32,254 nt of DNA from Oscillospiraceae bacterium (GTDB taxonomy: Bacteria > Bacillota > Clostridia > Oscillospirales > Oscillospiraceae). Positions 786 to 27,373 of the stretch are shown piece after piece. The notes below the pieces were generated by a model, which was given only the letters and a program-made list of their open reading frames with translations, made no database searches and was not told the origin of the DNA. Location of the stretch: the NCBI GenBank assembly GCA_022797115.1, contig JAAWKB010000017.1, positions 1 to 32,254 of the forward strand, in the 5' to 3' direction. Position 1 is the first letter of the stretch, and each line of letters begins with the position of its first letter. The translations under genes and the position numbers were made by a program.

Positions 786-833
786 CAGCGGCCATGTTTC
801 CTTTTGCAAAAGGGAATGGATCAAAAAGAAAAT
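786..833 (-). repeat. palindromic intergenic repeat, copy A (degenerate)
   Basis: This is the most diverged of seven copies. It has a GGCC-AT left end, a short CCTTTTG/CAAAAGG palindrome (800-813) and then GGATCAAAAAGAAAA. It lies in the leader of the csoR-like gene and forms an inverted pair with copy B. Confidence 0.5.
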
Positions 834-863
834 ATTACACCATATTCTGCGGAGGAATCTCAA
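834..863 (-). promoter_or_regulatory. candidate csoR promoter
   Basis: On the minus strand TTGAGA (complement of 858-863) and TGTAAT (complement of 834-839) each match the sigma-A consensus at five of six positions, with 18 bases between them. The resulting leader would contain the degenerate repeat copy at 786-833. No GC-rich CsoR operator palindrome was recognised. Confidence 0.5.
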
Positions 864-883
864 AATTACACAGGATAGCGTGT

Positions 884-930
884 TTCTTTTGATCCTTTTC
901 TTTGTTCACAAAGAAAAGGATGGCTGCCGC
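884..930 (+). repeat. palindromic intergenic repeat, copy B
   Basis: The order is TCTTTTG, then a 13-bp stem (ATCCTTTTCTTTG at 892-904, CAAAGAAAAGGAT at 909-921) with loop TTCA, then GGCTGCC. It is AT-rich in a GC-rich genome and lies 53 bases past the stop of cysK. Its stem uses the ATCC/GGAT variant, matched on both arms. Confidence 0.8.
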
Positions 931-983
931 TTCTCCGCGTAGTGTACCAGAGTTTGGCGGCGAAGGCAAGCCCCGTGGGGGGA

Positions 984-1916
984 TTACCCCGCGAAGAGCG
1001 GGGTAGACAGGTAGCGGCTGCCGGAGTCCGGCAGGAGGGCTACGATGGTCTTGCCCCGGTTTTCCGGCCGCCTGGCCAGCTCCATGGCGGCCCAGACCGC
1101 CGCGCCGGAGGAAATCCCCACCAGCACGCCCTCGCTGCGGGCCACCTGCCGGACAGCGGCGAAGGCGCCGCCGTCCGGCACAGGGATAATCTCGTCATAG
1201 ACTGCGGTGTCCAGCACGGCGGGGACGAACCCCGCGCCGATGCCCTGGAGCTGGTGGGCCCCGGCCTCCCCCCCGCCCAGCACGGGGGAGGCGGCGGGCT
1301 CCACAGCAACAATCCTGACCGCAGGGTTCCGCCCCTTGAGATACTGGCCCACGCCGGTGATGGTGCCGCCGGTGCCCACACCGGCGACAAAAATGTCCAC
1401 CTTTCCCTCCGTGTCCTCCCAGATCTCCGGTCCGGTGGAGGCCCGGTGGGCGGCGGGGTTGGCGGGGTTGGTAAACTGGCCGGGGATCAAGCTGCCGGGG
1501 ATCTCCCCCGCCAGCTCCTCCGCCTTGGCGATGGCCCCCGCCATGCCCCTGGACCCATCGGTCAGCACCAGCTCCGCGCCGTAGGCCGCCATCAGCTGCC
1601 GCCGCTCCGCACTCATGGTCTCCGGCATGACGATGATGGTCCGGTAGCCCCTGGCGGCGGCCACGGCGGCCAGGCCGATGCCCGTGTTGCCGGAGGTGGG
1701 CTCGATGATGACGGAGCCGGGCTTCAGCAGGCCCCGCCGCTCCGCGTCGTCGATCATCTCCAAGGCGACGCGGTCCTTTACGCTGCCGGCGGGGTTGAAA
1801 TACTCCAGCTTGGCGAGGAGCCGGGCCTCCAGCCCCTCATCCCGCTCTATGCGGGCCAGCTCCAGCAGGGGCGTGCGTCCAATCAGCTGGCTGACGGATG
1901 TGTAAATCATGCTCAT
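984..1916 (-). CDS. cysK: cysteine synthase (O-acetylserine sulfhydrylase)
   Basis: This is a 310-residue fold-type II PLP enzyme that makes cysteine from O-acetylserine and sulfide in the cytoplasm. Lys47 in NPAGSVKDR is the Schiff-base lysine, TSGNTG (74-79) is the substrate-binding loop, and GVGTGGTI is the phosphate-binding glycine loop. Length is typical of CysK. The ATG at 1916 follows AAGGAGG by 8 bases; an upstream in-frame GTG at 1934 overlaps that site and was rejected. It lies 53 bases downstream of purL on the same strand with no clear terminator between, so it may be read from the purine operon. CysM cannot be excluded from sequence alone. Confidence 0.9.
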
Positions 1917-1969
1917 GACGGGTTCCTCCTTCACAGGATGATGGGATCATGACAGTATAGGACAGAGGA

Positions 1970-4900
1970 TCAGCGGAAATACCGGGCTGCGCTGGTAAAG
2001 AGGCCCAGGTCATACCTTCCGGGCACATTCCGGTAGAGGGCGGGGCCGATGCGCTCGCTGTGGCCCATCTTGCCCAGCACCCGGCCGTCGGGGGAGGTGA
2101 TGCCCTCAACCGCCCAGGCTGAGCCGTTGGGATTGTAGGCGGCGTCCATGGAGGGGGCGCCGCTGGGGTCCACATACTGGGTAGCGATCTGCCCTGCCTC
2201 CGCCAGCTGGCGCAGCAGCGCCTCGGCGGCCACGAAGCGGCCCTCACCATGGGAGATGGGCACGCTGTACACCTCCCCGGGCGCGGCCTCCAGCAGCCAG
2301 GGGGACAGGTTGGAGCAGACGCGGGTGCGGACAATGGAGGACTGGTGCCGCCCGATGGCGTTGTAGGTCAGGGTGGGGCAGCTTGCGTCCGTGTCCCGGA
2401 TATCGCCGAAGGGGAGCAGGCCCAGCTTGACGAGGGCCTGGAAACCGTTGCAGATGCCCAGCATCAGGCCGTCCCGGTTTTGCAGCAGGTCACGGATGGC
2501 GTCGGTGAGCTGGGGGCTGCGCAGGAAGGAGACAATAAATTTCGCGGACCCGTCTGGCTCGTCGCCGCCGGAGAAGCCGCCGGGCAGGAACACGACCTGG
2601 GCGCGCCGGATGGCCTGCTCCAGCGCCTGGGCGGACTGGGCCAGGGCGTCGGGTGTCAGATTGCGGATCACCACGGCCTCCGCCTCCAGCCCCGCGCGCA
2701 GGCAGGCCCGGGCGGAGTCGTACTCACAGTTGGTGCCGGGGAAGACGGGGATAACCACCCGGGGCTTGGCGATGCCGCGCCCCAGGACGGCGGCGCAGCC
2801 CTTGTCCCAGGTGATGGGCGCAGCTGTGCCGGCCTCGCCGGTGCGGGTGGGGTAGACCTCCTCCAGGACGGCCTCGTTCAGCGACAACAAATCGTCGATG
2901 GACGCAGAATCATTACAAATCGTAATCACCAGTTCGGCTACAGTGACGCCGATGCGCTTGGCGCAGGGCACTTCCTCCGCCAGCTCCGCCACAATCACAG
3001 CGGAGCCGGGCGCGTACCAGTTGACGGTATCATCCTCCGTTTGGAAGCCGATGCGGTTGCCAAAGGACATCTTCATGACCGCGTCGGCCAGGCCGTCCTC
3101 CGCCACCCAGGCGGCCTTGACCTTCCCCTCCTGGGCCAGCGTGTGGAACGCCTCCCAGGCGGCCTTTTGGCCCTGGGCCGTGCCATCCCCGGCAAACGTG
3201 TACACCGGATGCCCGGCCTCCTTAAACTCGGGGGTCAAGACCTCCCCGGCCCGGATGGGGGCGATGGCGAAGGAGATGACGGTGGGGGGCACGTCCAGCT
3301 CCAGGAAGGAGCCGGACATGGAGTCCTTGCCGCCGATGGCGGCGCAGCCGTAGTCCAGCTGGGCGGACAGGGCCCCCAGCAGGGCTGCGAAGGGCTTGCC
3401 CCAGCGCATGGGCTCATCCCGCAGCTTCTCAAAATACTCCTGCAAGGTCAGGTAAGCTCTCTGGTAGTCCGCGCCGGCGGCCACCAGCTTGGCAATGGAG
3501 ATGGTGACTGCGTCATAGGCCCCCCAGTAGGGCGTTTTGGACGAATAGTCCGGGTCGCAGCCGTAGGCCATGACGCTCCCTTGCTCCGTCTCCTGCCCCG
3601 GCAGGACCGGCAGCAGCGCCGCCATGGCCTGGGCCGGGGTGCGCTGGGTTTTGCCGCCGAAGGGCATGGTCACGCTGCCCGCGCCGATGGTGCTGTCAAA
3701 CCGCTCCACCAGCCCCCTGCGGGAGGCGCACCGCAGGCTGGCGGCGGTCTCCCGCAGGGAGGTGGGCCGCTCCACAGCGCCGCCCGCATAGGGGGGCACG
3801 GAGACGGCGGCGTGCTTGATGGCGCCGTTGGTGTCGAGAAACGCCCGGCTTAAATCCGCGATGGCCTGCCCCCGCCACTTCATCACCATGCGGGGGGACT
3901 CTGTGACCACGGCCACCTGATAGGCCTCCAAGTTCTCCGCCTGGGCGGCGGCGATGAGCGCAGCCGCGTCCCCGGGGGCCACCACCACCGCCATGCGCTC
4001 CTGGCTCTCGGAGATGGCCAGCTCGGTGCCGTCCAGGCCGTCGTACTTCTTGCGCACCGCGTCCAGGTCGATCTCCAGGCCGCCGGCCAGCTCGCCGATG
4101 GCGACGGATACGCCGCCCGCGCCGAAGTCGTTGCAGCGTTTGATCATGCCCGTGACGCGGGAATCCCGGAACAGACGCTGCAGCTTGCGCTCCTCGGGGG
4201 CGTTGCCCTTCTGCACCTCGCTGGCCATGGTGGTAAGGGAGGTGAGGTTGTGGCTTTTGGAGGAGCCGGTGGCTCCGCCGATGCCGTCCCGGCCGGTGCG
4301 GCCACCCAGCAGGATCACCACATCCCCGGGGGCGGGCCGCTCCCGGCGCACGTTCGAGGCTGGGGCTGCGCCCACCACCGCGCCGCACTCCAGGTGCTTG
4401 GCGATGTAGCCGGGGTGGTAGAGCTCGGCCACATGGCCGGTGGCCAGCCCGATCTGGTTGCCGTAGGAGCTGTACCCCGCTGCCGCCGTCACCGCCAGTT
4501 TCCGCTGGGGCAGCTTGCCGGGCAGGGTGTCGGAGAAGCTGGCGCGGGGGTCGCCGCAGCCGGTGACACGCATGGCCTGGTGGACATAGGCCCGGCCGGA
4601 AAGGGGGTCGCGGATGCACCCGCCGATGCAGGTGGCCGCGCCGCCGAAGGGCTCAATTTCCGTGGGATGGTTGTGGGTTTCATTTTTGAACAGGAGCAAC
4701 CAGTCCTGCTGCTCGCCGTCCACCTGGGCGGGGACATGGATGGAGCAGGCGTTGATTTCCTCGCTCTCGTCCAGCTCCGGGAGCAGGCCCCGCTTTTTCA
4801 GGGCCTTCGTACCGATGGTGGCAATGTCCATCAGGGTCTGGGGCCGCGCCGCCGCCTTCTCGGGGCCGTAGACCTCCTCGCGGGCGGCGAGATAGCGTCC

Positions 4901-5647
4901 GTAGGCCGCCTCCACGGCGGCGTCCCCGATGTCCACCTTGTCCAGATGGGTGGAGAAGGTGGTGTGGCGGCAGTGGTCGGACCAGTAGGTGTCCACCACC
5001 CGCACCTCCGTAATGGTGGGGTCCCGGTGCTCCGTATCCCGGAAGTAGGCCTGCAAAAACGCCAGATCATCCAGATCCATGGCGAGGCCCAGCTTCTCCA
5101 GCAGGGCGGCCAGCCCCGCCTGGTCCAGGCCGGTGAAGCCGCTGAGGGTCTCCACCATGGGCGGCGCATCGTGGGAGCGGGCCAGGGTCTCCGGCTTCTC
5201 CAGGGACGCCTCCCGGCTCTCCACGGGGTTGATGAGGTAGTGTTTGATCTTCTCCAGGCCGCCGCCGTCCAGTTTTCCCTCCAGCAGGTAGACCTTGGCG
5301 TGGGCCACCAAAGGCCGCTCCACGCCGGCCATCAGCTGGATGCACTGGGCACAGGAGTCGGCGCGCTGGTCGAACTGGCCCGGCAGGGCCTCCACCGCCA
5401 GCAGGCAGTGGAGGGAGCGGGGCTCAGGGAAGGTTTCGTCCCAGATCTCGTCCACCTGGGGTTCGGAAAAGACGATATGCTTGGCCTTTTCGTAGACGGC
5501 AGGGCTGATGCCCTCCACATCGTAGCGGTTCAAAATACGCACGCCCTCCAGCCCTGCAATGCCCAGGAACCCCCGCAGGTCGCCCAGCAGGTTCCCGGCC
5601 TCCGGGGACAGGCCGGGGCGTTTTTCTACAAAAATGCGGTAAACCAT
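1970..5647 (-). CDS. purL: phosphoribosylformylglycinamidine synthase, single-chain
   Basis: This 1225-residue enzyme converts FGAR, glutamine and ATP to FGAM, step four of purine synthesis. Synthetase and glutaminase are fused in one chain, unlike the split PurS/Q/L of Bacillus, and the arrangement fits the clostridial clade II form. The synthetase half carries NETHNHPTEIEPFGG and several glycine-rich ATP-binding stretches. A class I glutamine amidotransferase domain starts near residue 965 (VVIPVFPGTNCE). Its nucleophile is Cys1066 in LGICNGFQ and the catalytic pair is His1133 and Glu1135 in SHGEGRF. The ATG directly abuts the purD stop codon, so the two are translationally coupled. All key residues are intact. 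Confidence 0.97.
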   Translation of the reverse strand: MVYRIFVEKRPGLSPEAGNLLGDLRGFLGIAGLEGVRILNRYDVEGISPAVYEKAKHIVFSEPQVDEIWDETFPEPRSLHCLLAVEALPGQFDQRADSCAQCIQLMAGVERPLVAHAKVYLLEGKLDGGGLEKIKHYLINPVESREASLEKPETLARSHDAPPMVETLSGFTGLDQAGLAALLEKLGLAMDLDDLAFLQAYFRDTEHRDPTITEVRVVDTYWSDHCRHTTFSTHLDKVDIGDAAVEAAYGRYLAAREEVYGPEKAAARPQTLMDIATIGTKALKKRGLLPELDESEEINACSIHVPAQVDGEQQDWLLLFKNETHNHPTEIEPFGGAATCIGGCIRDPLSGRAYVHQAMRVTGCGDPRASFSDTLPGKLPQRKLAVTAAAGYSSYGNQIGLATGHVAELYHPGYIAKHLECGAVVGAAPASNVRRERPAPGDVVILLGGRTGRDGIGGATGSSKSHNLTSLTTMASEVQKGNAPEERKLQRLFRDSRVTGMIKRCNDFGAGGVSVAIGELAGGLEIDLDAVRKKYDGLDGTELAISESQERMAVVVAPGDAAALIAAAQAENLEAYQVAVVTESPRMVMKWRGQAIADLSRAFLDTNGAIKHAAVSVPPYAGGAVERPTSLRETAASLRCASRRGLVERFDSTIGAGSVTMPFGGKTQRTPAQAMAALLPVLPGQETEQGSVMAYGCDPDYSSKTPYWGAYDAVTISIAKLVAAGADYQRAYLTLQEYFEKLRDEPMRWGKPFAALLGALSAQLDYGCAAIGGKDSMSGSFLELDVPPTVISFAIAPIRAGEVLTPEFKEAGHPVYTFAGDGTAQGQKAAWEAFHTLAQEGKVKAAWVAEDGLADAVMKMSFGNRIGFQTEDDTVNWYAPGSAVIVAELAEEVPCAKRIGVTVAELVITICNDSASIDDLLSLNEAVLEEVYPTRTGEAGTAAPITWDKGCAAVLGRGIAKPRVVIPVFPGTNCEYDSARACLRAGLEAEAVVIRNLTPDALAQSAQALEQAIRRAQVVFLPGGFSGGDEPDGSAKFIVSFLRSPQLTDAIRDLLQNRDGLMLGICNGFQALVKLGLLPFGDIRDTDASCPTLTYNAIGRHQSSIVRTRVCSNLSPWLLEAAPGEVYSVPISHGEGRFVAAEALLRQLAEAGQIATQYVDPSGAPSMDAAYNPNGSAWAVEGITSPDGRVLGKMGHSERIGPALYRNVPGRYDLGLFTSAARYFR

Positions 5648-6925
5648 TTACGCTCCCTCCTTCATCGCCTGCAAAGCCCGCTGCCCGATGTCCCGGCGGC
5701 AGTAGGCGTTGTCGAAGTGGATGCGGCCGGCCAGGGCGTAGGCCCTCTCAATCGCGGCAGGCAGGGTGTCCGCCACCGCTGTCGCGCCCAGCACACGCCC
5801 GCCGCTGGTGACAAGCCGGCCGTCCTTCTCCGCCGCCCCGGCGATGTAGATATGCTCATCTGCCCCGGTCTCCGGCAGGGAGATGGGGAAGCCCTTCTCA
5901 TACGTCTGGGGGTAGCCCTGGGAGGCCAGGATGACGCAGCAGGCGGATTTCCCGCTGAAGCGCACAGCTGTGTCCGCCAGCCTGCCCTCGCTCACCGCCA
6001 GCATGATCTCCAGCAGGCTCCCCTCCAGCAGGGGCAGCACCACCTGTGTCTCTGGGTCGCCAAACCGGCAGTTGTACTCAATGACCTTGGGCCCGTCCGC
6101 TGTCAGCATCAGGCCGAAGTAGAGGCAGCCCTGGAAGGGCCGGCCCTCGGCCCGCATAGCCTGGATGGTGGGCAGGAAAATGGCCTCCATGCACGCCGCC
6201 GCGATCTCCGGGGTGTAGTAGGGGTTGGGGGCCACGGTGCCCATGCCGCCGGTATTGAGCCCCTGGTCCCCGTCCAAGGCCCGCTTGTGGTCCATGGAGG
6301 ACACCATGGGCACGACCGTCTCCCCGTCGGTGAAGGAGAGCACGGAGACCTCCGGCCCGGTGAGGAATTCCTCAATAACCACCCGCGCCCCGCTCTCACC
6401 GAAGATGCGGCCCTCCATCATGGAGCGGACCGCCTCCCGGGCGGCCTCCCGGGTCTCACAGATCAGCACGCCCTTGCCCAGGGCGAGGCCGTCGGCCTTG
6501 ACCACAGTGGGCAGCGGGCAGTGCTCCACATAGTCCAGCGCCGCCGCCAGGTCGGAGAAAACCTCGTAGGCGGCGGTGGGGATGTGGTATTTCTTCATCA
6601 GCTCCTTGGCGAACACCTTGCTGCCCTCGATGGCGGCGGCGTCCTTCCGGGGCCCGAAGCAGGGGAAGCCGGCGGCGGTAAAGGCGTCCACCGCCCCCAG
6701 CACCAGGGGGTCGTCAGGCGCGACCACCACGAAGTCCACGGCGTGGGCCTTTGCGAAGTCCACCATGCCGGGGATGTCGCAGGCGCCCACGCCGCCGCAC
6801 ACGGCGCCGGCGGCAATGCCGCCGTTGCCCGGCAGGGCGTAGATGGTTTCCGCCCTGGGGTCCTCCTTCAGCTTGCGGATGATGGCGTGTTCACGGCCGC
6901 CGCCGCCGATAACCAGAATATTCAT
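5648..6925 (-). CDS. purD: phosphoribosylamine-glycine ligase
   Basis: This 425-residue ATP-grasp enzyme joins glycine to phosphoribosylamine to give GAR, step two of the pathway. The N-terminus MNILVIGGGGREHAI is diagnostic. It is followed by the ATP-grasp body (KADGLALGKGV near 140), and the metal/ATP-binding YNCRFGDPETQ lies near residue 285. The ATG at 6925 was preferred over an in-frame ATG six codons upstream because GAGAGG precedes it by 8 bases. Its stop codon is immediately followed by the purL start. An 85-base gap with a hairpin (6967-7003) separates it from the upstream transformylase gene. Confidence 0.97.
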   Translation of the reverse strand: MNILVIGGGGREHAIIRKLKEDPRAETIYALPGNGGIAAGAVCGGVGACDIPGMVDFAKAHAVDFVVVAPDDPLVLGAVDAFTAAGFPCFGPRKDAAAIEGSKVFAKELMKKYHIPTAAYEVFSDLAAALDYVEHCPLPTVVKADGLALGKGVLICETREAAREAVRSMMEGRIFGESGARVVIEEFLTGPEVSVLSFTDGETVVPMVSSMDHKRALDGDQGLNTGGMGTVAPNPYYTPEIAAACMEAIFLPTIQAMRAEGRPFQGCLYFGLMLTADGPKVIEYNCRFGDPETQVVLPLLEGSLLEIMLAVSEGRLADTAVRFSGKSACCVILASQGYPQTYEKGFPISLPETGADEHIYIAGAAEKDGRLVTSGGRVLGATAVADTLPAAIERAYALAGRIHFDNAYCRRDIGQRALQAMKEGA

Positions 6926-6966
6926 GGTCCATACCTCTCTCATAAGTGGATGATCGGATAGCAGAA

Positions 6967-7003
6967 GGGACCGCCATCCGGCTGATGCCGGACGGCCGGT
7001 CCC
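6967..7003 (-). other. intercistronic hairpin between AICAR transformylase gene and purD
   Basis: GGGACCG (6967-6973) pairs with CGGTCCC (6997-7003). CATCCGGC (6975-6982) pairs with GCCGGACG (6987-6994) with one wobble. No T-run follows in the leftward direction, so a processing or stability element is more likely than a true terminator. Confidence 0.5.
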
Positions 7004-7010
7004 GGAGTCC

Positions 7011-8195: not shown

Positions 8196-8208
8196 GACGT
8201 TCTCCTTT

Positions 8209-9645: not shown

Positions 9646-9649
9646 ACCG

Positions 9650-12002: not shown

Positions 12003-12020
12003 GGTGGTTCTCACTTTCTC

Positions 12021-12074
12021 GGTAATCATTCTTTTTCTTTGTGGACAAAGAAAAAGAATCAAAAAGAAAAACTT
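12021..12074 (-). repeat. palindromic intergenic repeat, copy C
   Basis: GGTAATC is followed by a 14-bp perfect stem (12028-12041 with 12046-12059, loop TGGA) and then CAAAAAGAAAAACTTTT. It lies just upstream of the purM start and is inverted relative to copy D. The stem is the ATTC/GAAT variant. Confidence 0.85.
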
Positions 12075-12171
12075 TTCTGGCGAAACGCTGTTTCGCCGGG
12101 AGTATCATGATAGAAAAAAGGGGGGACTGCCGCTTAGGATACCTGGAAACAGGCGGAAAACACGGATAAAG

Positions 12172-12213
12172 CTCTTTTTGATTCTTTTTCTCTCGAGAAA
12201 AAGAATGGCCGCC
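12172..12213 (+). repeat. palindromic intergenic repeat, copy D
   Basis: CTCTTTTTG leads into an 11-bp stem (12181-12191 with 12196-12206, loop CTCG), then GGCCGCC. Its right end touches the purF stop codon at 12214. With copy C it brackets about 100 bases of non-coding DNA within the purine operon. Confidence 0.85.
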
Positions 12214-13635
12214 TTATTCTTTCCCGGTCCAGCAGTAGGTGCAGATCTTGTCCCGGTCAATGCCGATGGCCTCCAGCAGCCCGTCCAGGGACTGGTAGCC
12301 CAGGGAGCTGAAGCCCATCCCGTCGCAGATGGTTTTCAGCAGGCACTGCCCCCGCTCCGAGGAGCCGTCCGCGTACTCATCCAGGTGCGCCTGCCCCTCG
12401 TCCCCCTCCAGCTGCTGGATGGTGGAGCGGGTGAGCAGCTCCATGTCGGAGTTGCTGCGGGAGAAGTTCAGGTACTTGCACCCGTACATAATGGGCGGGC
12501 AGGCGGAGCGCATGTGGACCTCCTCCGCGCCGCAGCCGTACAGGAAGTCGATGGTCTCCCGCAGCTGGGTGCCCCGGACGATGGAGTCGTCCACAAACAG
12601 GAGCTTCTTCCCGTCGATCAGCTCCGGGACGGGGATCTGCTTCATCTTTGCCACCTGGCTGCGCACGTCCTGGTTGGAGGGCATGAAGGAGCGGGGCCAG
12701 GTGGGGGTGTACTTCACGAAAGGCCGGGCAAAAAACTTGCCGCTGCGGTTGGCGTAGCCGATGGCGTGGGGCAGGCCGGAGTCCGGCACGCCGGCCACAT
12801 AGTCCACCTTGGGCAGCTTCCCCCGGGCGATCTCGTCCCGGGCCATGATCTCCCCGTTGCGGTAGCGCATCAGCTCCACGTTGACCCCCTCATAGTTGGA
12901 GTTGGGGTAGCCGTAGTAGGTCCACAAAAAGGCGCAGATGCGCATCTTCTCCCCGGCGGGGGTGAGCGTCTCCCAGCCCTCCGCCGTCACGCGCACGATC
13001 TCCCCGGGGCCCAGCTCGTAGGCGTCGGCATATCCCAGCTTGGAGTAGGCGAAGGACTCGAAGGATACGCAGCACCCGTCCTCGCTCTTCCCGATCAGCA
13101 CCGGCAGGCGGCCCAGCCGGTCCCGGGCGGCGATGATGCCGTCAGGCGTCAGGACCAGGATGGTGGCGGAGCCGTCGATCATCTGCTGGGCGTGGCGGAT
13201 GCCCTCATCCAGGCTGCCCTTCTGGTTGATGAGGGCGGCGGTCAGCTCGGTGGAGTTGACCGCGCCGGAGCTCATGGCCATAAACTGGTGCCCCAGGTTG
13301 GAGAAATAGGTCTCCACCAGCTCCTCGGAGTTGTTGATGATCCCCACGGTGGTGATGGCGTACAGCCCCAGGTGGGAGCGCACCAGCAGGGGCTGGGGGT
13401 CGGTGTCGCTGATGCAGCCGATCCCGCTGCGGCCGCGGAACTTGGACAGATCCTTCTCAAACTTGGTGCGGAAGGGGGTGTTCTCAATATTATGGATCTG
13501 CCGCTGGAACCCGTCCTTCTGGTCGTAGACGATCATGCCGCCCCGGCGGGTGCCCAGGTGGGAATGGTAATCCACACCGAAAAAAATGTCAAGGACGCAG
13601 TCGCGCTTGGAAACCGCTCCAAAAAAACCTCCCAA
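12214..13635 (-). CDS. purF: PurF-like amidophosphoribosyltransferase lacking the Cys nucleophile
   Basis: This 473-residue protein occupies the PurF slot, the committed step PRPP to phosphoribosylamine. The phosphoribosyltransferase half looks complete: GVPDSGLPHAIGYA and the PRPP loop LLFVDDSIVRGTQLRET. The N-terminal glutaminase half is divergent. Normal PurF matures to an N-terminal Cys from MCGIVGI or a propeptide form, but this protein begins MGGFFGA, with Gly at the Cys position, and no cysteine lies near the N-terminus. The start is a TTG at 13635, 6 bases after AAGGAG; the upstream purC stop at 13651 leaves no room for a Cys-bearing extension. It may use ammonia, take it from another glutaminase, or work beside a second PurF. 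The PRTase call is firm; glutamine use is doubtful. Confidence 0.88.
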   Translation of the reverse strand: MGGFFGAVSKRDCVLDIFFGVDYHSHLGTRRGGMIVYDQKDGFQRQIHNIENTPFRTKFEKDLSKFRGRSGIGCISDTDPQPLLVRSHLGLYAITTVGIINNSEELVETYFSNLGHQFMAMSSGAVNSTELTAALINQKGSLDEGIRHAQQMIDGSATILVLTPDGIIAARDRLGRLPVLIGKSEDGCCVSFESFAYSKLGYADAYELGPGEIVRVTAEGWETLTPAGEKMRICAFLWTYYGYPNSNYEGVNVELMRYRNGEIMARDEIARGKLPKVDYVAGVPDSGLPHAIGYANRSGKFFARPFVKYTPTWPRSFMPSNQDVRSQVAKMKQIPVPELIDGKKLLFVDDSIVRGTQLRETIDFLYGCGAEEVHMRSACPPIMYGCKYLNFSRSNSDMELLTRSTIQQLEGDEGQAHLDEYADGSSERGQCLLKTICDGMGFSSLGYQSLDGLLEAIGIDRDKICTYCWTGKE

Positions 13636-14930: not shown

Positions 14931-14974
14931 AAAAATAAAAAGGGCAGACCCGTCCTCTTGAGGATAGGCTGCCC
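14931..14974 (-). terminator. riboswitch-controlled intrinsic terminator before purE
   Basis: Reading leftward, GGGCAG (complement of 14969-14974) and CTGCCC (complement of 14942-14947) close a hairpin with an inner CCTC/GAGG stem. A T-rich run TTTTATTTTT follows (complement of 14931-14940). The 5' arm reuses the conserved CTGGGCA of the ZTP aptamer. The 3' arm also contains CGGGTCTG, a perfect 8-base complement to CAGACCCG at the 5' edge of the aptamer (15039-15046), a ready antiterminator. Confidence 0.85.
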
Positions 14975-15046
14975 AGACGGCCGGCATACGTCGCCCCGCC
15001 TGCTCCCGCGTGGTGCTCCACAATCCGTCAGTTGCAGCCGGGTCTG
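14971..15046 (-). ncRNA. ZTP riboswitch (pfl motif)
   Basis: The leader of the leftward purine operon contains the hallmark parts of the ZTP (ZMP/AICAR-triphosphate) aptamer in order. First comes GCAACTGACGGA, resembling the CGUGACUGGCGGA core. A GTGG-AGCA-CCAC hairpin is followed by GCGGGAGC, with CTGC/GCAG closing the first helix. The 3' part is GCCGGCCGTCTGGGCA, resembling CCGCCUGGGCA. Known ZTP riboswitches activate purine and one-carbon genes when 10-formyl-THF runs short and AICAR derivatives accumulate. Ligand binding would hold the CTGGGCA segment and block the overlapping terminator. No covariance model was run; recognition is by motif. Confidence 0.82.
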
Positions 15047-15212: not shown

Positions 15213-15342
15213 TTGTCCAATGGACTGGAATGCGGTCCGGCCAATCAGCTTAAGGAGAGGGGGCGCCGGTTTTGAAAAAGATGGACGGTTTCTATGGCTC
15301 CCCTCTTTCCCCGCAGGGTGGGACGGCCGCGTATTTTGTTTT

Positions 15343-19734: not shown

Positions 19735-19763
19735 CGGAAGGCCCGGAGGATTCCGCGAAGAAC

Positions 19764-19807
19764 GGACAAAAGTTGCTCGATTTGTCCAAAATCTGAAAAT
19801 TTTTCAG
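19764..19807 (+). terminator. weak possible terminator after carB
   Basis: GGACAAA/TTTGTCC (19764-19770, 19781-19787) and CTGAAAA/TTTTCAG (19793-19807) are two small stems beginning 30 bases after the carB stop. Neither is followed by a good T-run, so termination here is uncertain. Confidence 0.35.
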
Positions 19808-19827
19808 GCAATCTGCTAAATTATTAG

Positions 19828-19856
19828 TTGAAATCCACAGGGAAATACGGTACAAT
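19828..19856 (+). promoter_or_regulatory. promoter of the BMP transporter operon
   Basis: TTGAAA (19828-19833) and TACAAT (19851-19856) are separated by exactly 17 bases, a strong sigma-A promoter. The leader of about 45 bases is too short for a riboswitch. Confidence 0.75.
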
Positions 19857-19909
19857 AGGGACTGTATTAGATAGTGGAAAGGATTGGATCAAAAAAGGAG
19901 GATATGGAT

Positions 19910-21193: not shown

Positions 21194-21204
21194 TCACCCT
21201 GCGC

Positions 21205-21235
21205 AAAAGAGGGCCGTGCGCGCGGCCCTCTTTTT
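21205..21235 (+). terminator. terminator between binding protein and transporter genes
   Basis: GAGGGCCG (21209-21216) and CGGCCCTC (21223-21230) form a perfect 8-bp stem, extended by AAAA/TTTT pairing and followed by TTTTT. Partial readthrough would give the usual excess of binding protein over transporter. Bases 21236-21375 also contain a CCGGGCC/GGCCCGG hairpin (21303-21321). Confidence 0.8.
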
Positions 21236-21375
21236 ATTCAACCTGGACCCCTGGGCCCGCTCATCTTGCCCCGCCAAGAAAAGCGGCAAAGGCACCGTGA
21301 GCCCGGGCCGCGCAGGCCCGGCGGCAACAAACCCCGCCCCGCCCTCCCTGGCGCGGGGCAGAAAGGATGACAGCC

Positions 21376-22911
21376 TTGGAAAAAACTGTTTGTGCCATTG
21401 AATTAAAAGGCATCACCAAGCGTTTCGGGGAGGTTGTGGCCAACGACGGCATCAACCTCCAGCTCCACCGGGGGGAAATCCTCTCCCTGCTGGGGGAGAA
21501 CGGCAGCGGCAAGACGACGCTGATGAACATGCTGGCGGGTATCTACTTCCCCGACGAGGGACAGATCTATGTGGGCGGGAAGCCTGTGTCCATCCGCTCG
21601 CCCAAGGACGCCTACGCCAACGGCATCGGCATGATCCACCAGCACTATAAGCTGGTGGACGTGTTCACTGCCACGGAGAACATCGTCCTGGGCCTGGAGG
21701 AGGGCGGAAAGCTGGACCGGAAGGCGGCCAACGAGAAGGTGCGCGCCATCTGCGAACGCTACGGCTTTGACATCGACCCCGCCCAGAAGATTTACGACAT
21801 GTCCGTCTCCCAGAAGCAGACGGTAGAGATTGTCAAGGTCCTCTATCGGGGGGCGGACATCCTGATCCTGGATGAGCCCACCGCCGTGCTCACCCCCCAG
21901 GAGACCAACAAGCTCTTTGCCGTTCTGCGCAGTATGCGCGCTGACGGCAAGGCCATCGTCATCATCACCCACAAGCTCCATGAGGTGATGGCCCTGTCCG
22001 ACAAGGTGACGGTGCTGCGCAAGGGCAAGTACATCGGCACCGTCGCCACCAGCCAGACCACCCCCCAGGCCCTCACCGACATGATGGTGGGCCGCAGCGT
22101 CACGCTGGATATCGGCCGCCCCCGGTACGGGAACCCCGTCAAGCGCCTGGAGCTGCGGGACGTGACGTGCCACGACGGGGAGGGTGTGAAGCGGCTGGAC
22201 GGCGTGTCCTTCACCGCCATGGGCGGGGAAATCCTGGGCATTGCCGGCATCGCCGGTTCCGGCCAGCGGGAGCTGCTGGAGGCGGTGGCTGGGCTCTACC
22301 CGGTCAGCAGCGGCGAGATCCTCTACTCCCCGGAGGGCCGGGAGCCCTCATCCCTGGTGGGCAAGACCCCCATGCAGATCAAGCGGGCCGGCGTCGCCAT
22401 GGCCTTCGTCCCCGAGGACCGGCTGGGCATGGGCCTGGTGGGCTCCATGGGCATGACCGGCAATATGATGCTCCGCTCCTGGCGGAAGGGGAAGGGCGCC
22501 TTCGTCAACCGCAAGGACCCCAACGAGCTGGCCCTCCAGATCTGGAAGGAGCTGGAGGTGGTCACGCCCAGCACGGAGTTCCCGGTGCGCCGCATGTCCG
22601 GCGGCAACGTGCAGAAGGTGCTGGTAGGCCGTGAGATCGCCAGCGCCCCCTCGGTGCTGATGACGGCCTACGCGGTGCGGGGGCTGGATATCAACACCTC
22701 CTACACCATTTATAACCTGCTCACGGAGCAGAAGATGAAGGGCGTGGCAGTCATCTATGTGGGCGAGGACCTGGACGTGCTGCTGGAGCTGTGCGACCGG
22801 ATTTTGGTCCTGTGCGGCGGCCGCGTCAGCGGCATCGTGGACGCCCGGACCGCCACCAAGGACCAGATTGGGCTGCTGATGACCCGGCTGGGCGGAAAGG
22901 AGGAGGCATAA
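21376..22911 (+). CDS. BMP-type ABC importer ATPase, two nucleotide-binding domains
   Basis: This roughly 511-residue protein energises the importer with two fused ABC domains, like Bacillus NupO and sugar-type RbsA. Domain 1 has Walker A GENGSGKTT and Walker B LILDEPT but a poor signature (MSVSQKQ). Domain 2 has a good signature (RMSGGNVQK) but a degenerate Walker A (GIAGSGQRE, no Lys) and Walker B without the catalytic Glu (LMTAYAVRGLD). Only one composite ATP site should be active, which is common in this family. I prefer the TTG at 21376 because AAAGGATG lies about 6 bases before it; an ATG at 21367 abuts AAAGG with no spacing. The stop is followed directly by the permease ATG. Confidence 0.93.
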   Translation: MEKTVCAIELKGITKRFGEVVANDGINLQLHRGEILSLLGENGSGKTTLMNMLAGIYFPDEGQIYVGGKPVSIRSPKDAYANGIGMIHQHYKLVDVFTATENIVLGLEEGGKLDRKAANEKVRAICERYGFDIDPAQKIYDMSVSQKQTVEIVKVLYRGADILILDEPTAVLTPQETNKLFAVLRSMRADGKAIVIITHKLHEVMALSDKVTVLRKGKYIGTVATSQTTPQALTDMMVGRSVTLDIGRPRYGNPVKRLELRDVTCHDGEGVKRLDGVSFTAMGGEILGIAGIAGSGQRELLEAVAGLYPVSSGEILYSPEGREPSSLVGKTPMQIKRAGVAMAFVPEDRLGMGLVGSMGMTGNMMLRSWRKGKGAFVNRKDPNELALQIWKELEVVTPSTEFPVRRMSGGNVQKVLVGREIASAPSVLMTAYAVRGLDINTSYTIYNLLTEQKMKGVAVIYVGEDLDVLLELCDRILVLCGGRVSGIVDARTATKDQIGLLMTRLGGKEEA

Positions 22912-23997
22912 ATGGAGACGAAGGTTCCCCTGATCCGCCTTGCCAAGCGGGAGGGGATGGAGACCTGGAAGGTCTGGTGCATCCGGGTGGGCTCCATCCT
23001 GCTGGCACTGCTGCTGGGGGCGCTGGTGATGGTCCTGGTGGGGGTGAACCCCATCGGGGCCTACGGCACCATCCTCTCCGGCGCGCTGGGGAAGAAAACC
23101 GCCATCCGGCAGACGGTGAAGATCGCCGTCCCCCTGCTGGGCTGCGCCCTGGCCATCGCGCCCTGCTTTAAGATGCGCTTCTGGAACATCGGCGCGGAGG
23201 GCCAGATCACCGCTGGGGCCATTGCGGCGTCCTACTTCGCCCTGTTCTGGGTGGGGCGGCTGCCGGGGCCGGTGCTGCTGGTGGTGATGGGACTGGCCGG
23301 CGCGGCTGCCGGTGGGCTGTGGGCCCTGATCCCCGCGTTTTTCAAGGCGAAGTGGAATACCAACGAGACCCTCTTCACCCTGATGATGAACTATATCATC
23401 ATCGGCGTGGTCCGCTGGCTCCAGGGCGGGCCCTGGGAGGGCCGTCCCGGCAGCCAGATCATCCCCCAGTTTGACGGGGCCGCCTGCCTGCCCCGGGTGC
23501 TGGGCGTCCACTGCGGGTGGATCATCGTGCTGGTACTGGTGGTATTCATGCACGTTTATATGCGCTACACCAAGCACGGCTATGAGATCGCCGTCATCGG
23601 TGACAGCGTGAACACGGCCCGGTATGCGGGTATGAACGTGGGGCATATTATGATGCGGACCATGTTCCTGTCCGGGGCCATCAGCGGCATTGTGGGATTT
23701 ATCGTGGCCTCCGGGGCCAACAACACCCTCTATGACGGCGTGGCGGGGGGCGTGGGCTTCACGTCCATCACCGTGGCCTGGCTGAGCCAGCTCAACGCCT
23801 TTGCCATGGTGGTAATCTCCATGCTGCTGGCCGTGCTGGAGAAGGGGGCGGAGACGCTGCAAACCCGGCTGGCTGTACCCACCTCCATCTCCGATATCAT
23901 CACCGGCATCCTGCTCTTCTGTATGCTGGGCTGTGAATTTTTCATCAACTACCGGCTGATCCTCCGCAAGGGCGGCCATAAGGAGGTGGCGAAGTAA
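22912..23997 (+). CDS. BMP-type ABC importer permease 1
   Basis: This 361-residue integral membrane protein is of the branched-chain/ribose permease class (BPD_transp_2), corresponding to NupP. It has many hydrophobic segments, starting with IRVGSILLALLLGALVMVLV near residue 23. The family-typical MRFWNIGAEGQITAGA lies near residue 87, and a cytoplasmic coupling region with YEIAVIGDSVNTARYAGM follows. The start codon directly follows the ATPase stop (TAAATG) behind GGAGG. It should form the channel with permease 2. Stop and next start share one base. Confidence 0.93.
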   Translation: METKVPLIRLAKREGMETWKVWCIRVGSILLALLLGALVMVLVGVNPIGAYGTILSGALGKKTAIRQTVKIAVPLLGCALAIAPCFKMRFWNIGAEGQITAGAIAASYFALFWVGRLPGPVLLVVMGLAGAAAGGLWALIPAFFKAKWNTNETLFTLMMNYIIIGVVRWLQGGPWEGRPGSQIIPQFDGAACLPRVLGVHCGWIIVLVLVVFMHVYMRYTKHGYEIAVIGDSVNTARYAGMNVGHIMMRTMFLSGAISGIVGFIVASGANNTLYDGVAGGVGFTSITVAWLSQLNAFAMVVISMLLAVLEKGAETLQTRLAVPTSISDIITGILLFCMLGCEFFINYRLILRKGGHKEVAK

Positions 23998-24986
23998 TGT
24001 CCGGCTTTGTAACCCTGTTGATCGCCCTGGTGGCCGCTGCCATTACCTACGGCACGCCCCTGCTCTTCGGTACACTGGGCGAGGTGCTCACAGAGAAGTC
24101 CGGCAACCTCAACCTGGGCGTGGAGGGCATCATGTTCATGGGCGGGGCCATGGGCCTGGGCGGCGTGTTCTACTATGAGAAGGGCGGCGGGGCCAACGGC
24201 TTTGCCGCAGTGGCCATCGCCATCCTGTGCGCCTTCCTGGCCGGGGCCCTGGCGTCCCTGATCTTCAGCTTTCTGACCACCACCCTCCGGGCCAACCAGA
24301 ATGTCACGGGCCTTGCCCTGTCCATCTTTGGTACCGGTATCGGCCAGTTTATCGGTGAGTACATGCGGGTCAGCGAGGGGGGCTATATCTCCATCAGCAA
24401 CCGGCTGGCGGGCTATTTCCAGAACGCGCCCTTCCCCGCCTTCCTGCAAAAAATCCCCCTGGTGGGGGGCATCCTGTTCGGCAACAGCCTGTTCTTCTAC
24501 CTGGCCGTACTCCTGGCGGTGGCCCTGTTCTGGTATCTGAACAAGACCCGCTCCGGCCTCTATCTGCGGGCCGTGGGCGAGTCCCCGGCCACGGCCGACG
24601 CGGCGGGCATCAATGTCACCCGTTACAAGTATCTGGCTACTGTCATCGGCGGTGGGATCTCCGCCATCGGCGGCATGGTGTACATTATGACCATCGCGGG
24701 CTGTGTCTGGAACCACGAGGGCCTGTCCGGCGAGGGCTGGCTGGCAGTGGCGCTGGTGATCTTCTGTATGTGGCGGCCCCTGTCCGCCATCTGGGGGTCG
24801 GTGCTCTTCGGCGCGCTGATGATCCTGTACCTGCGGCTGGTAATCCCCTTCATCCCCACCCAGCTGTATAAAATCCTGCCCTATGTCGTCACGGTGGTTG
24901 TCCTCATCGTCTCCAGTATGCGCAACAACAAGGAGAAGCAGCCCCCGGCCAGCCTGGGACTGTCCTACTTCCGGGAGGACAGGTAA
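23997..24986 (+). CDS. BMP-type ABC importer permease 2
   Basis: This 329-residue multi-span permease, the NupQ equivalent, has GEVLTEKSGNLNLGVEGIMF near its N-terminus and a coupling region with LRAVGESPATADAAGIN near residue 190. The ATG at 23997 overlaps the previous stop (TAATG). The gene ends inside repeat copy E: the repeat's left end GGTAATC supplies the TAA stop, so the C-terminus may have been set by repeat insertion. The transporter set is then complete: lipoprotein, fused ATPase and two permeases. Confidence 0.93.
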   Translation: MSGFVTLLIALVAAAITYGTPLLFGTLGEVLTEKSGNLNLGVEGIMFMGGAMGLGGVFYYEKGGGANGFAAVAIAILCAFLAGALASLIFSFLTTTLRANQNVTGLALSIFGTGIGQFIGEYMRVSEGGYISISNRLAGYFQNAPFPAFLQKIPLVGGILFGNSLFFYLAVLLAVALFWYLNKTRSGLYLRAVGESPATADAAGINVTRYKYLATVIGGGISAIGGMVYIMTIAGCVWNHEGLSGEGWLAVALVIFCMWRPLSAIWGSVLFGALMILYLRLVIPFIPTQLYKILPYVVTVVVLIVSSMRNNKEKQPPASLGLSYFREDR

Positions 24987-25027
24987 TCATCCTTTTTCTT
25001 GAAAGAAAAAGGATCAAAAAGAACTTT
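24982..25027 (-). repeat. palindromic intergenic repeat, copy E
   Basis: GGTAATC (24982-24988) is followed by a 12-bp palindrome (24989-25000 with 25003-25014) and CAAAAAGAACTTT. The TAA at 24984-24986 is the stop codon of permease 2. The stem is the ATCC/GGAT variant. It faces copy F across the NTF2-like gene. Confidence 0.85.
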
Positions 25028-25050
25028 ATGTGGGAAGAGGGTGTGACACG

Positions 25051-25470
25051 ATGCTTGACCGGGAGGCAGTTGTCCGGCAGTGGTTCCATATGTGGCTCCA
25101 GCAGGAGGATACCGGGATCAGCGGGGTATTCACCGGTGACGCGGTGTATATCGAGAGCTGGGGGCCGGAGTACCACGGTTCCGCCGCAATCCAGCACTGG
25201 TTCGAGGAATGGAACACACGGGGACGGGTCCTGCAATGGGACATCCGGCAATTTTTCCACGCCGGGGATCAGACAGTTGTGGAGTGGTATTTCCGGGATG
25301 CCATGAACGATGGCGCGGCGGAAGCCTTTGACGGCATAAGCCTGATCCAATGGGCGTCAGATGGCCGGATCTGCCGTTTGCAGGAGTTCGGCTGCAATGA
25401 GGACCGGTATGACCCCTATGCCCATGGGGATGCGCCGGTGTTCCGGGCTGAAAAGCCGATGTGGTTCTGA
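25051..25470 (+). CDS. NTF2-like (SnoaL-type) small protein
   Basis: This 139-residue protein resembles the NTF2/SnoaL fold: an N-terminal helix with REAVVRQWFHMW, then GDAVYIESWGPEYHGSAAI, WEEWNTRG-type helix residues, and a strand VVEWYFRDAM. Such proteins are small-molecule isomerases, hydrolases or ligand-binding domains, and no specific activity can be assigned. The ATG at 25051 follows AGAGGG by 9 bases. It is flanked by inverted repeats E and F and is functionally unrelated to the transporter upstream or rpe downstream. It could be cargo of the repeat pair or simply lie between two insertions. Confidence 0.75.
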   Translation: MLDREAVVRQWFHMWLQQEDTGISGVFTGDAVYIESWGPEYHGSAAIQHWFEEWNTRGRVLQWDIRQFFHAGDQTVVEWYFRDAMNDGAAEAFDGISLIQWASDGRICRLQEFGCNEDRYDPYAHGDAPVFRAEKPMWF

Positions 25471-25507
25471 CAGCCTCCCCGCGCAAAACCTCGCTGTGCG
25501 GTTCGGT

Positions 25508-25551
25508 TTTCTTTTGATTCTTTTCTTTTTCAAAAGAAAAGAATGACTGCC
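25508..25551 (+). repeat. palindromic intergenic repeat, copy F
   Basis: TTTCTTTTG leads into a 13-bp palindrome (25517-25529 with 25532-25544) and then GACTGCC. It lies 37 bases after the NTF2-like gene and is inverted relative to copy E. The stem is the ATTC/GAAT variant and has a shortened T-run, shortened equally on both arms. Confidence 0.85.
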
Positions 25552-25570
25552 AAAAAAATAGCCGCTGGCT

Positions 25571-25760
25571 GGAGGCCGTCGGAGCGGGCCCCGACGGCCT
25601 CCTATATGTTATGCGGCGCGCCCCCGGCGCAGGCGGGGACAGGTACGGCGTGGGAAGGGGGTTCGCCCCGCCGGGGACGCCCTTGCCGCGTACGGTATCC
25701 TATGAAGCGGACTGGGCTGTGGTGCTACCCTCTTCTGTGCGGCGCACCCGCCTGTCCGCC
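25571..25760 (+). other. structured GC-rich leader upstream of rpe
   Basis: The gap 25471-25799 has no gene. GGAGGCCGTCGG (25571-25582) and CCGACGGCCTCC (25591-25602) form a perfect 12-bp stem without a T-run. Further on, CAGGCGGG (25630-25637) can pair with CCCGCCTG (25747-25754). That helix encloses an inner arm of GTACG/CGTAC and AAGGG/CCCTT with a GGGG-GTTCG-CCCC tip. It could be a terminator plus a structured leader RNA. No known riboswitch class was recognised. Confidence 0.4.
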
Positions 25761-25799
25761 CGGATTTGGCCCAAACCATTGAAAAAAGGGAGTACGACT

Positions 25800-26444
25800 A
25801 TGTTGAAAATTGCGCCCTCCATCCTTTCCGCTGATTTTGCAAATTTAGAGCGGGAGATCCGCCGGGTTGACACGGCCGACTACCTCCATGTGGATGTGAT
25901 GGACGGCCTGTTTGTGCCCAATATCACCATCGGCATCCCCGTAGTGCAGGCCATCCGCCCTGTCACAGCCCTGCCGCTGGACGTCCACCTGATGATCGAC
26001 CGGCCTGTGCGGTATGTGGAGCAGTTCTGCCGCGCGGGCGCGGACATTGTCACTGTCCATGTGGAGGCCGACAGCGAGGAGAATACGAAAAAGGCCCTCT
26101 CGCTGATCCGGGCCCAGGGCAAGTGCGCAGGTGTGGTACTCAAGCCGGGCACCCCGGCGGAGGCCGCCCTGCCCTTCCTGGAGCTGTGCAGCATGGTGCT
26201 GGTGATGACAGTGGAGCCAGGGTTCGGCGGGCAGGCGTTCATGGAGGACATGATGCCCAAACTGCGCACCCTGCGGGGCTGGATTGACCAGAGGGGCCTG
26301 GACTGTGAGCTGGAGGTGGACGGCGGGATCGGCCCGGACACCTGCAAGACAGCCGCCGCCAACGGGGCCACTGTCCTGGTGGCGGGCAGCGCGGTTTACC
26401 GCGCCCAGGATATCCCGGCGCGCATCCGGGAGCTGAGGGGGTGA
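25800..26444 (+). CDS. rpe: ribulose-phosphate 3-epimerase
   Basis: This 214-residue TIM-barrel enzyme interconverts ribulose 5-phosphate and xylulose 5-phosphate in the pentose phosphate pathway. IAPSILSADFANL at 4-16, HVDVMDGLFVPN near 34, DVHLMI near 65, VEPGFGGQAF near 140 and EVDGGIGPDT near 172 cover the metal-binding His/Asp residues and the phosphate loop. The length matches the family. The ATG at 25800 follows AAAAAAGGGAG. The stop is 4 bases before recR, so the two are co-transcribed. It could indirectly supply ribose phosphate for the PRPP used by the purine operon. Confidence 0.97.
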   Translation: MLKIAPSILSADFANLEREIRRVDTADYLHVDVMDGLFVPNITIGIPVVQAIRPVTALPLDVHLMIDRPVRYVEQFCRAGADIVTVHVEADSEENTKKALSLIRAQGKCAGVVLKPGTPAEAALPFLELCSMVLVMTVEPGFGGQAFMEDMMPKLRTLRGWIDQRGLDCELEVDGGIGPDTCKTAAANGATVLVAGSAVYRAQDIPARIRELRG

Positions 26445-26448
26445 GCCG

Positions 26449-27048
26449 GTGGAGTATTTTCCCGCGCCCCTGGAGAAGCTGGTGGAGCAGTTTGCCAGCC
26501 TCCCGGGCATCGGCGGCAAGTCCGCCCAGCGGCTGGCCTTCCATGTCCTGGGCCTCACTCAGGAGGAGGCCCAGGAGTTTGCCAACGCGATTTTGGATGC
26601 AAAGCGCAATGTAACCTGCTGCCCGGTGTGCCAGAACCTCACCGCCGGCGGCCTGTGCCCCATCTGCGCCTCCCCCAGGCGGGACACAACTACCATCTGT
26701 GTGGTGGCGGACCCCCGGGATGTGGCCGCCATCGAGCGGGCCAGGGAGTACGGCGGACGCTACCACGTCCTCCACGGCGTGATCTCCCCCATGAACCATG
26801 TGGGCCCCGATGACCTGGAGATCAAATCCCTGGTGGAGCGGGTGGCCCAGGGGGATGTGCAGGAGGTCATCATGGCTACGAACCCGGACACGGAGGGGGA
26901 GGCCACGGCTATGTACCTGGCCCGTTTGCTCAAGCCCTTCGGCGTGCGGGTGACTCGCCTGGCCTACGGAATCCCTGTGGGCGGGCACCTGGAGTTTGCC
27001 GACGACGCCACCCTGATGCGGGCCCTGGAGGGCCGCCGGGAGCTGTAA
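26449..27048 (+). CDS. recR: recombination protein RecR
   Basis: This 199-residue protein acts with RecF and RecO to load RecA at gaps. It has an N-terminal helix-hairpin-helix (LPGIGGKSAQRLAFH near 19), a four-Cys zinc finger (CPVC and CPIC, about 57-72) and a Toprim domain (ICVVADPRDVAAIER; ATNPDTEGEATAMYLARLL). The start is a GTG at 26449, four bases after the rpe stop, with GAGGGGGTGA just upstream overlapping the rpe end. All family motifs and the normal length are present. In many Firmicutes recR follows dnaX; here it follows rpe. Confidence 0.97.
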   Translation: MEYFPAPLEKLVEQFASLPGIGGKSAQRLAFHVLGLTQEEAQEFANAILDAKRNVTCCPVCQNLTAGGLCPICASPRRDTTTICVVADPRDVAAIERAREYGGRYHVLHGVISPMNHVGPDDLEIKSLVERVAQGDVQEVIMATNPDTEGEATAMYLARLLKPFGVRVTRLAYGIPVGGHLEFADDATLMRALEGRREL

Positions 27049-27069
27049 TATTCATGCAAGTGCCGGAGC

Positions 27070-27133
27070 CTGTTTGCGAACGGCCAACATGCCCAAACAG
27101 CGGATCATTTCCCGCCGCCCTGCTGTTGGGCAT
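27070..27133 (+). other. hairpin region after recR with two exclusive pairings
   Basis: ATGCCCAAACAGC (27089-27101) pairs with GCTGTTGGGCAT (27122-27133), 12 bp with one bulge. Alternatively CTGTTTG (27070-27076) pairs with CAAACAG (27094-27100). The two are mutually exclusive. There is no T-run, so it is a weak recR terminator at best. Confidence 0.4.
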
Positions 27134-27202
27134 ATCGTCAATTTGAAAGCAGACTCTAATTTTTACGGCAGAGCGGCCGATGAACAGAATAGCGAAGGAA
27201 AG

Positions 27203-27241
27203 GCCTCCCGCTGGGAGGCTCTCAGCAGGTATATCTGCTGA
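27203..27241 (+). other. tandem hairpins upstream of fliB-like gene
   Basis: GCCTCCC/GGGAGGC (27203-27219, 3-base loop) is followed two bases later by TCAGCAG/CTGCTGA (27222-27241, 6-base loop). Both are perfect 7-bp stems. Bases 27049-27412 otherwise hold no gene; repeat copy G occupies 27327-27373. Confidence 0.45.
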
Positions 27242-27326
27242 TATGCCTTGAGCCGGGTTTCCTGCCGCCGCAAGCGGGGCAAACCCTGGCGCATAATTCC
27301 TCCCGGGGTTTCAGCTTGGGGGGTGT

Positions 27327-27373
27327 AAAAGTTCTTTTTGATTCTTTTTCTTGCAAGAAAAAGAATGACTACC
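27327..27373 (+). repeat. palindromic intergenic repeat, copy G
   Basis: AAAAGTTCTTTTTG leads to a perfect 26-base palindrome (27341-27366) with arms ATTCTTTTTCTTG and CAAGAAAAAGAAT, then GACTACC. It lies 39 bases before the fliB-like gene. No inverted partner was found nearby. Confidence 0.85.

Follow-up and report, generated by a model that had tools for sequence, protein, structure and literature searches.

An AT-rich repeat family of the Oscillospiraceae with three-strand covariation: candidate triple-helix-forming ends of a miniature mobile element

Short AT-rich repeats lying between the genes of an Oscillospiraceae bacterium form a family in which a flanking pyrimidine tract covaries with both arms of a hairpin. 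Copies lying close together are mostly arranged as inverted pairs of unlike ends, and paired copies are inserted at two gene junctions. We consider it probable, at roughly 60%, that the copies are the ends of a miniature mobile element that folds in its single-stranded form into a Y·R–Y triple helix, a reading drawn from the sequences themselves. Each copy would be one end of a small, non-autonomous element, and the strand reading outward from the element would fold into a hairpin with arms T(m)CT(k) and A(k)GA(m). The upstream tract G-T(k)-C-T(m)-G would occupy the major groove as a Hoogsteen strand running parallel to the purine arm, to make a pyrimidine-motif triple helix that may be capped where the tract's first base pairs with the last base of the loop. 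Two-ended units would usually combine a short-type end (k = 2) with a long-type end (k of 3–6), directed outward and occupying ∼110–360 bp between genes, and the fold would serve as the recognition structure for a putative mobilizing enzyme supplied in trans.

The window, by which we mean the entire stretch of 32 254 nucleotides analyzed, is contig 45 of a 2.27 Mb assembly that is 75% complete. It contains six good copies of the repeat and one decayed copy, at seven places (Table 1). The initial annotation had described seven copies of a single architecture, and this stands for six of the seven, where one strand reads tract, G, hairpin and tail in that order. At 786–834 the hairpin has gone, and the folding is not above that of shuffled sequences. 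As RNA, five of the good copies fold better than their shuffled counterparts (z from −4.8 to −2.3), and that at 12168–12214 is unremarkable (z = −0.63). The six match the covariance model with E < 3e-9, a result that follows by construction as all are among its 49 training copies. In the short-type end at 24981–25027 the repeat tail provides the TAA stop codon of the preceding permease-type gene. No T-run is found 3′ of the hairpin on either strand, so that the elements are not intrinsic terminators, as had been noted originally. The conserved tail GACTGCC, which had been taken as a mark of the family, proves to be a loose G...RCC-type tail of one lineage, and it is not family-defining because the tail differs in other genera.

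Table 1. Positions of repeat elements in the window, and loci of the second family. CM, covariance model; m and k as in the text.
Feature	Position	Strand	Component parts or neighbours	Evidence
Decayed element, left partner of pair 786–929	786..834	−		CM E = 0.022 (outside training set); folding z = −0.23
Long-type end, m = 4, k = 5	879..929	+	third strand 881–890, hairpin 892–921, tail 922–928	CM E = 2.8e-9, training copy
Paired insertion, long end minus and short end plus	12021..12213	.	purF (12214–13635, −) and purM (start 12002, −)	Pfam for both genes; empty sites in sister species
Long-type end, m = 5, k = 5	12020..12072	−	third strand 12061–12071, hairpin 12028–12059, tail 12021–12027	CM E = 1e-9, training copy
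Short-type end, m = 5, k = 2	12168..12214	+	third strand 12172–12179, hairpin 12181–12206; stem CTC/GAG, third strand CTC	CM E = 2.4e-10, training copy
Short-type end, m = 5, k = 2	24981..25027	−	third strand 25016–25023, hairpin 24989–25014	CM E = 1.7e-11, training copy
Long-type end, m = 4, k = 4	25504..25552	+	third strand 25507–25515, hairpin 25517–25544	CM E = 8.6e-10, training copy
Short-type end, single copy, m = 5, k = 2	27328..27374	+	third strand 27332–27339, hairpin 27341–27366	CM E = 3.7e-11, training copy
Second-family loci	L201–L220, L223, L229, L237, L034, L049, L245; e.g. L212 10611

Other features of the window were seen in passing. A ZMP/ZTP riboswitch (RF01750, 60 bits) lies near the purine genes at 14964–15045 on the minus strand. 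By eye, inner hairpins such as GCAAARCGNAGYTTTGC are found a few bases before many long-type ends (e.g. 12079–12098), and a different repeat of ∼180 bp with inverted ends like GGGCNTGTTTGANANATGNCAGAATG occupies 27050–27200; the latter type also occurs upstream of C92:53037, C96:5291 and C70:16385 of G000.

How widespread is the repeat? A strict core pattern has 50 matches in the genome of origin, compared with none for the reversed pattern used as control; chance is therefore excluded. The covariance model, whose training copies all come from this genome, with 150 of 1082 candidates scored, places copies at about 87 distinct positions at least (E up to ∼0.05, one partial). The original proposal of a repeat family is thus borne out genome-wide. 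The strict pattern is present in 22 of 60 genomes, namely the genome of origin and 21 of the 24 other members of its genus, and in none of the 35 from outside the genus. Model matches number 149 in G015, at least 150 in G014 and 86 in G010, a few of these being second readings of one palindrome. With a family-wide draw and stricter filters (E ≤ 1e-4), 9 of 91 genomes match: the genome of origin, a single congener and, among the 89 genomes of other genera, seven, including G076 with 51 copies and G102 with 13. The family is patchy, and extends beyond one genus. Three exact copies are found in two public metagenome-assembled genomes of uncultured Clostridia, and phage records gave no match. The window elements match no Rfam family at E ≤ 1, nor do nine loci at the gathering threshold, and a known RNA family was rejected on this basis. 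Searches of open PMC papers yielded none that describes this AT-rich repeat family.

The CTTTTTG flank recognized in the initial annotation is indeed present, but it is no simple flank, since its length and order track both arms of the stem. It has the character of a third strand, 5′-G T(k) C T(m) G set against a stem of T(m)CT(k)/A(k)GA(m), where k is the number of pairs from the C-G pair to the loop; over the copies k ranges from 1 to 6 and m from 3 to 6. The order of the tract is the mirror image of the 5′ arm, that is, the parallel complement of the 3′ arm. We scanned the fetched DNA for perfect hairpins whose 5′ arm holds a T-run, ignoring the flank; as the pattern and model used in fetching include some of the tract, there is a bias as to whether a tract is present, though not as to its exact length. 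Among 280 hairpin keys, 212 have a T-run of equal length one base from the stem on exactly one side, and none has one on both sides. These 212 elements were picked for a flanking T-run equal to the stem run m, so that the m cells match by construction and k provides the test. Of the 68 keys left out, 46 are single-strand sightings with the tract on the opposite side. Sorting of the other 22 by eye gave one opposite-strand repeat, eight with the tract at two bases, two parsing shifts, one second-family hairpin, seven in which the tract is broken or of another length and three without a tract (L104, L201 and L220). The last two groups, ten hairpins in all found without regard to the flank, speak against a triplex.

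In 202 of the 212 elements the tract has T opposite each A, and C opposite each G, of the 3′ arm. When the terminal purine is included the match is complete in 193, whereas 2000 shuffles confined to m classes never gave more than 147, and excluding the commonest class (m = 5, k = 2) leaves 65 matches in 78, against at most 44; as the copies are related, these shuffle counts are not probabilities. Listed as (m,k), the matches are (4,2) 2/3, (4,3) 5/10, (4,4) 18/20, (4,5) 18/20, (4,6) 3/3, (5,2) 128/134, (5,3) 1/1, (5,4) 1/2, (5,5) 10/11 and (6,2) 7/8, the correspondence being looser at k = 3. The tract is GTTC or ATTC in 134 of 142 elements with k = 2, GTTTTC or ATTTTC in 17 of 20 with k = 4, and GTTTTTTC in 3/3 with k = 6; the one case of k = 1 has GTC (L055). 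Within the commonest class, which holds 134 of the 212, length alone cannot separate a triplex from a direct repeat. Direct copying or slippage as the origin of the tract was rejected because the order is wrong at k ≥ 3.

The tract also follows changes of base. All three stems with CTC/GAG have the tract CTC; against this, CTT stems are accompanied by CTC in 2 of 142 cases and by TCC in three. A C in the purine arm is accompanied by T in the tract in 23 of 26 cases, and a T by G in both cases, L075 and L142, which align to the same junction and are probably one event. T opposite C and G opposite T are the preferred triplets at inversions in pyrimidine-motif triplexes. It counts against a triplex that C+·G-C triplets require protonation. 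The triplex code as a whole (T·A, C·G, G·T and T·C) is complete in 199 of 212 elements, the m cells by construction. A is rare in the tract; a purine-motif triplex on the opposite strand would tolerate it. In two-nucleotide loops the combination of the loop's final base with the tract's initial one is C-G in 174 elements, T-A in 14, T-G in three and C-A in two; a further eight cells contain a loop A or a tract T. This pair presumably resembles the parallel, Levitt-type pair.

The two arms vary in concert as previously described (ATTC/GAAT and ATCC/GGAT), and we find ATAC/GTAT, ATGC/GCAT and CTTC/GAAG in addition; the tract remains TTC whichever base the stem has, in 57/60, 48/51 and 24/27 elements, a constancy that Watson–Crick pairing of the tract could not produce. 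These changes support the earlier suggestion of a maintained folded form, a fold that would however be three-stranded. Stem mismatches are too few to tell whether the tract follows the 5′ or the 3′ arm. Elements from other genera belong mostly to the commonest class, but they include new variants that are again matched. Thus L322 has the tract TTCCTTTT with the stem TTTTCCTT/AAGGAAAA, L298 combines m = 3 with k = 4, and L325 has an A cap with the T-ending loop AT. The lengths, the positions of the C, the inversions and the loop cap change jointly on three strands, and this constitutes natural covariation evidence. Formation of the triple helix in the cell would be in keeping with it.

Neighbouring copies separated by less than 300 bp in the genome of origin, G010 and G015 are arranged minus-then-plus, i.e. 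facing outward, in 44 of 45 cases; one is plus-plus and none plus-minus. The count omits four model rows, three of which are opposite-strand readings of one palindrome, the fourth being a tandem on one strand (G010 C92:3617, its neighbour lying 37 bp away) whose inclusion gives 44/46. The fetched loci contain 43 distinct close pairs, of which 40 face outward as minus-plus, with lengths of 109–358 bp; in 37 of the 40 a short end (k ≤ 2) is combined with a long one (k ≥ 3). Inverted ends therefore surround a short non-coding unit, as in a MITE. The paired unit does not cover all copies. Many are single (258 of 310 blocks, overlapping loci being counted more than once), and may be remnants or variants of the pair. 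Two other arrangements were observed. In L158 of G010 two short-type ends abut in tandem within one insertion, and in G014 (L171–L220) the short-type ends make up the right-hand portion of a conserved ∼110-nt unit (consensus CGTTACCGTGCGG...GCAGCGCTTTGGGAGCGAT, 70 sequences) whose left end is like a degenerate inverted end.

Empty sites in sister species, which the initial annotation had suggested seeking, were seen at two junctions. Among the purF loci listed (18 of 27) 14 have purM next, the phosphoribosyltransferase domain of our purF scoring slightly under the Pfam cut-off. The pair is present between the two genes in the genome of origin, G015 and G010, and absent in 11; ten of these have gaps of ∼3–85 nt, and G018 has a different, GC-rich insert. 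Both ends of the G010 unit are long-type, and the long ends of the genome of origin and G015 differ by a compensatory change from ATTC/GAAT to ATAC/GTAT. The second junction lies downstream of an OmpR-type response regulator (PF00072, PF00486), where 11 of 20 loci share the next gene, a putative sensor kinase by its position. Here the pair is found in the genome of origin and G010, with the two units oppositely oriented, while nine loci have short gaps. Units of the genome of origin and G015 are opposed in orientation at another junction as well (L036 and L119). Filled junctions may reflect loss in the sisters, but the short gaps in most of them favour gain. No target duplication was evident by eye at purF–purM, where the flanks are too diverged. 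For the pair at 786–929 no synteny was found among the loci listed (20 of 30); here and at purF–purM the loci left out were contig-edge fragments, partial matches and paralogues. The gene at 27413–28639, matched in only 7 of 25 genomes, was not used as a junction.

Larger units carrying cargo were rejected, since outward intervals of 300–3000 bp barely exceed inward ones (9 versus 7). No autonomous copy was found, and by eye none of the open reading frames in six longer outward intervals is transposase-like. A SnoaL-like gene (PF12680) is located between the short and long ends at 24981–25552 in the usual outward orientation; in the light of the 9 to 7 ratio this is probably a coincidence and the gene not cargo.

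A second family shares the arrangement, comprising 23 distinct sequences in G014, G015, G003, G011 and the genome of origin. Its hairpins, such as TTACTTTTTGT/ACAAAAAGTAA, are likewise preceded by a T-run, and the bases 5′ of the run can pair with the loop by at least four pairs (G·T allowed) in 21 of 23 sequences, compared with a mean of 12.3 and a maximum of 19 in shuffled sequences. The layout is that expected of an H-type pseudoknot with a triplex. By eye, G014 has nine outward pairs of this family ∼400–830 bp apart, as apparently non-coding units. There is no Rfam match at the gathering threshold in the nine loci scanned. Taking the two families together, we raise more tentatively, at somewhat less than even odds, the idea of a class of mobile elements whose ends would be recognized as single-stranded triple-helix pseudoknots. 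Their triple helix would be kept by three-strand covariation across genera, with an independent second family of the same genus having the same fold and a longer loop-pairing stem.

What else might the repeats be? The best of the other readings, which we still regard as unlikely, is an RNA element of leaders and trailers that acts on the stability of mRNA ends or on ribosome access, with mobility incidental. In many copies (by eye) the tail lies a few bases before Shine–Dalgarno-like sequences or adjoins stop codons, and the pseudoknot layout of the second family would suit an RNA. So too would the ability of pyrimidine-type but not purine-type triplexes to form in RNA, as stated in PMC4666352. 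Stem mismatches on the tract-bearing strand are G·T in 24 cases and A·C in 11 (two-sided 0.04), or 19 and 6 once five elements with mismatches of both kinds are dropped post hoc. The excess lends mild support to a single-stranded state of the tract-bearing sense, whether as RNA or as DNA; in our preferred reading, too, the fold would form in such a single strand and not in duplex DNA. Against an RNA function, G·T is found in single-stranded DNA as well, the element is antisense to the gene at stop codons, and its orientation tracks the intergenic gap and not the direction of the genes (partly by eye).

A still less likely possibility is an ordinary MITE or BIME with palindromic ends read as duplex, the covariation of the tract descending from a few subfamilies and the triple helix being irrelevant. 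Paired inverted ends and insertions are what such an element would give, as are two main end types with one class holding most copies. Yet in nine of ten (m,k) classes the matched elements are the largest group, and in the other, (5,4), they are tied; direct copying would not yield the mirror order; the variants of other genera agree with a triplex; and on this view there is no reason why the loop cap and the inversion code should hold.

The tract and the 5′ arm make a homopyrimidine mirror repeat, from which H-DNA could form in duplex with the palindrome as a separate cruciform. H-DNA does not require the first tract base to covary with the final base of the loop, next to the 3′ arm, and we judge it improbable. 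A Watson–Crick switch, in which the tract pairs antiparallel with the 3′ arm, is very improbable. It is possible for k = 2 with ATTC stems and for k = m, but is complete in just 117 of 212 elements where the triplex code is complete in 199; it does better than the triplex in one, equally in 128 and worse in 83, and the tract is the same with ATAC stems and independent of the basal stem letters. Least probable of all are REP sequences spread by a RAYT (Y1) transposase, in favour of which are the BIME-like short palindromes in intergenic inverted pairs. This lead is not supported: PF01797 occurs in five of the 25 genomes of the genus, but went undetected in three copy-rich ones, G014 and G015 (98 and 91% complete, ∼150 matches each) and the genome of origin (75% complete).

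Bacterial repeats able to form triplexes have long been predicted. The natural covariation seen here opens the cellular relevance of intrastrand triplexes to direct test and ties the fold to DNA mobility. For biophysics, the family also offers a compact collection of naturally occurring triplex variants.

Four classes of intrastrand triplex have been defined, and the GC-rich BoxC/TM-ECO repeat studied, in PMC4666352. That paper reports BoxC/TM-ECO as not found in association with transposons, phages or plasmids; the sections consulted give no evidence from covariation for maintenance of the third strand in cells. The present family resembles PITs, and BoxC/TM-ECO in particular, in being a high-copy intergenic repeat of which one strand supplies both hairpin and third strand, sometimes in inverted pairs. 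Its order of 5′ Hoogsteen, pyrimidine and purine segments is that of class IV, and a Hoogsteen pyrimidine tract, pyrimidine arm and purine arm on one strand with 6–15 triplets are what is found here. BoxC is GC-rich, of the purine motif and proteobacterial (PMC4666352), whereas our family is AT-rich, of the pyrimidine motif and located at insertion ends, and shows three-strand covariation. Membership of BoxC/TM-ECO was rejected given the AT-rich, pyrimidine order against the consensus CCCTCNCCC...GGGNGAGGG...GGGNGAGGG. Like MITEs and BIMEs, these are small inserted units with inverted ends and no coding capacity seen. Unlike them, the ends are usually two and unlike, each with hairpin and third strand, and neither target duplication nor transposase was found for the family. 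In telomerase RNA a 5′ U-rich strand lies in the deep groove of an A-U stem and is capped by loop pairing. The tract in a stem groove and the cap by pairing with the loop are comparable here, the cap being one base pair in the main family and at least four in those 21 of 23 second-family sequences. Unlike riboswitches or telomerase RNA, however, the family is repeated mobile DNA with no Rfam match in the loci scanned. We therefore call the AT-rich family an intrastrand-triplex repeat that also ends a miniature mobile element.
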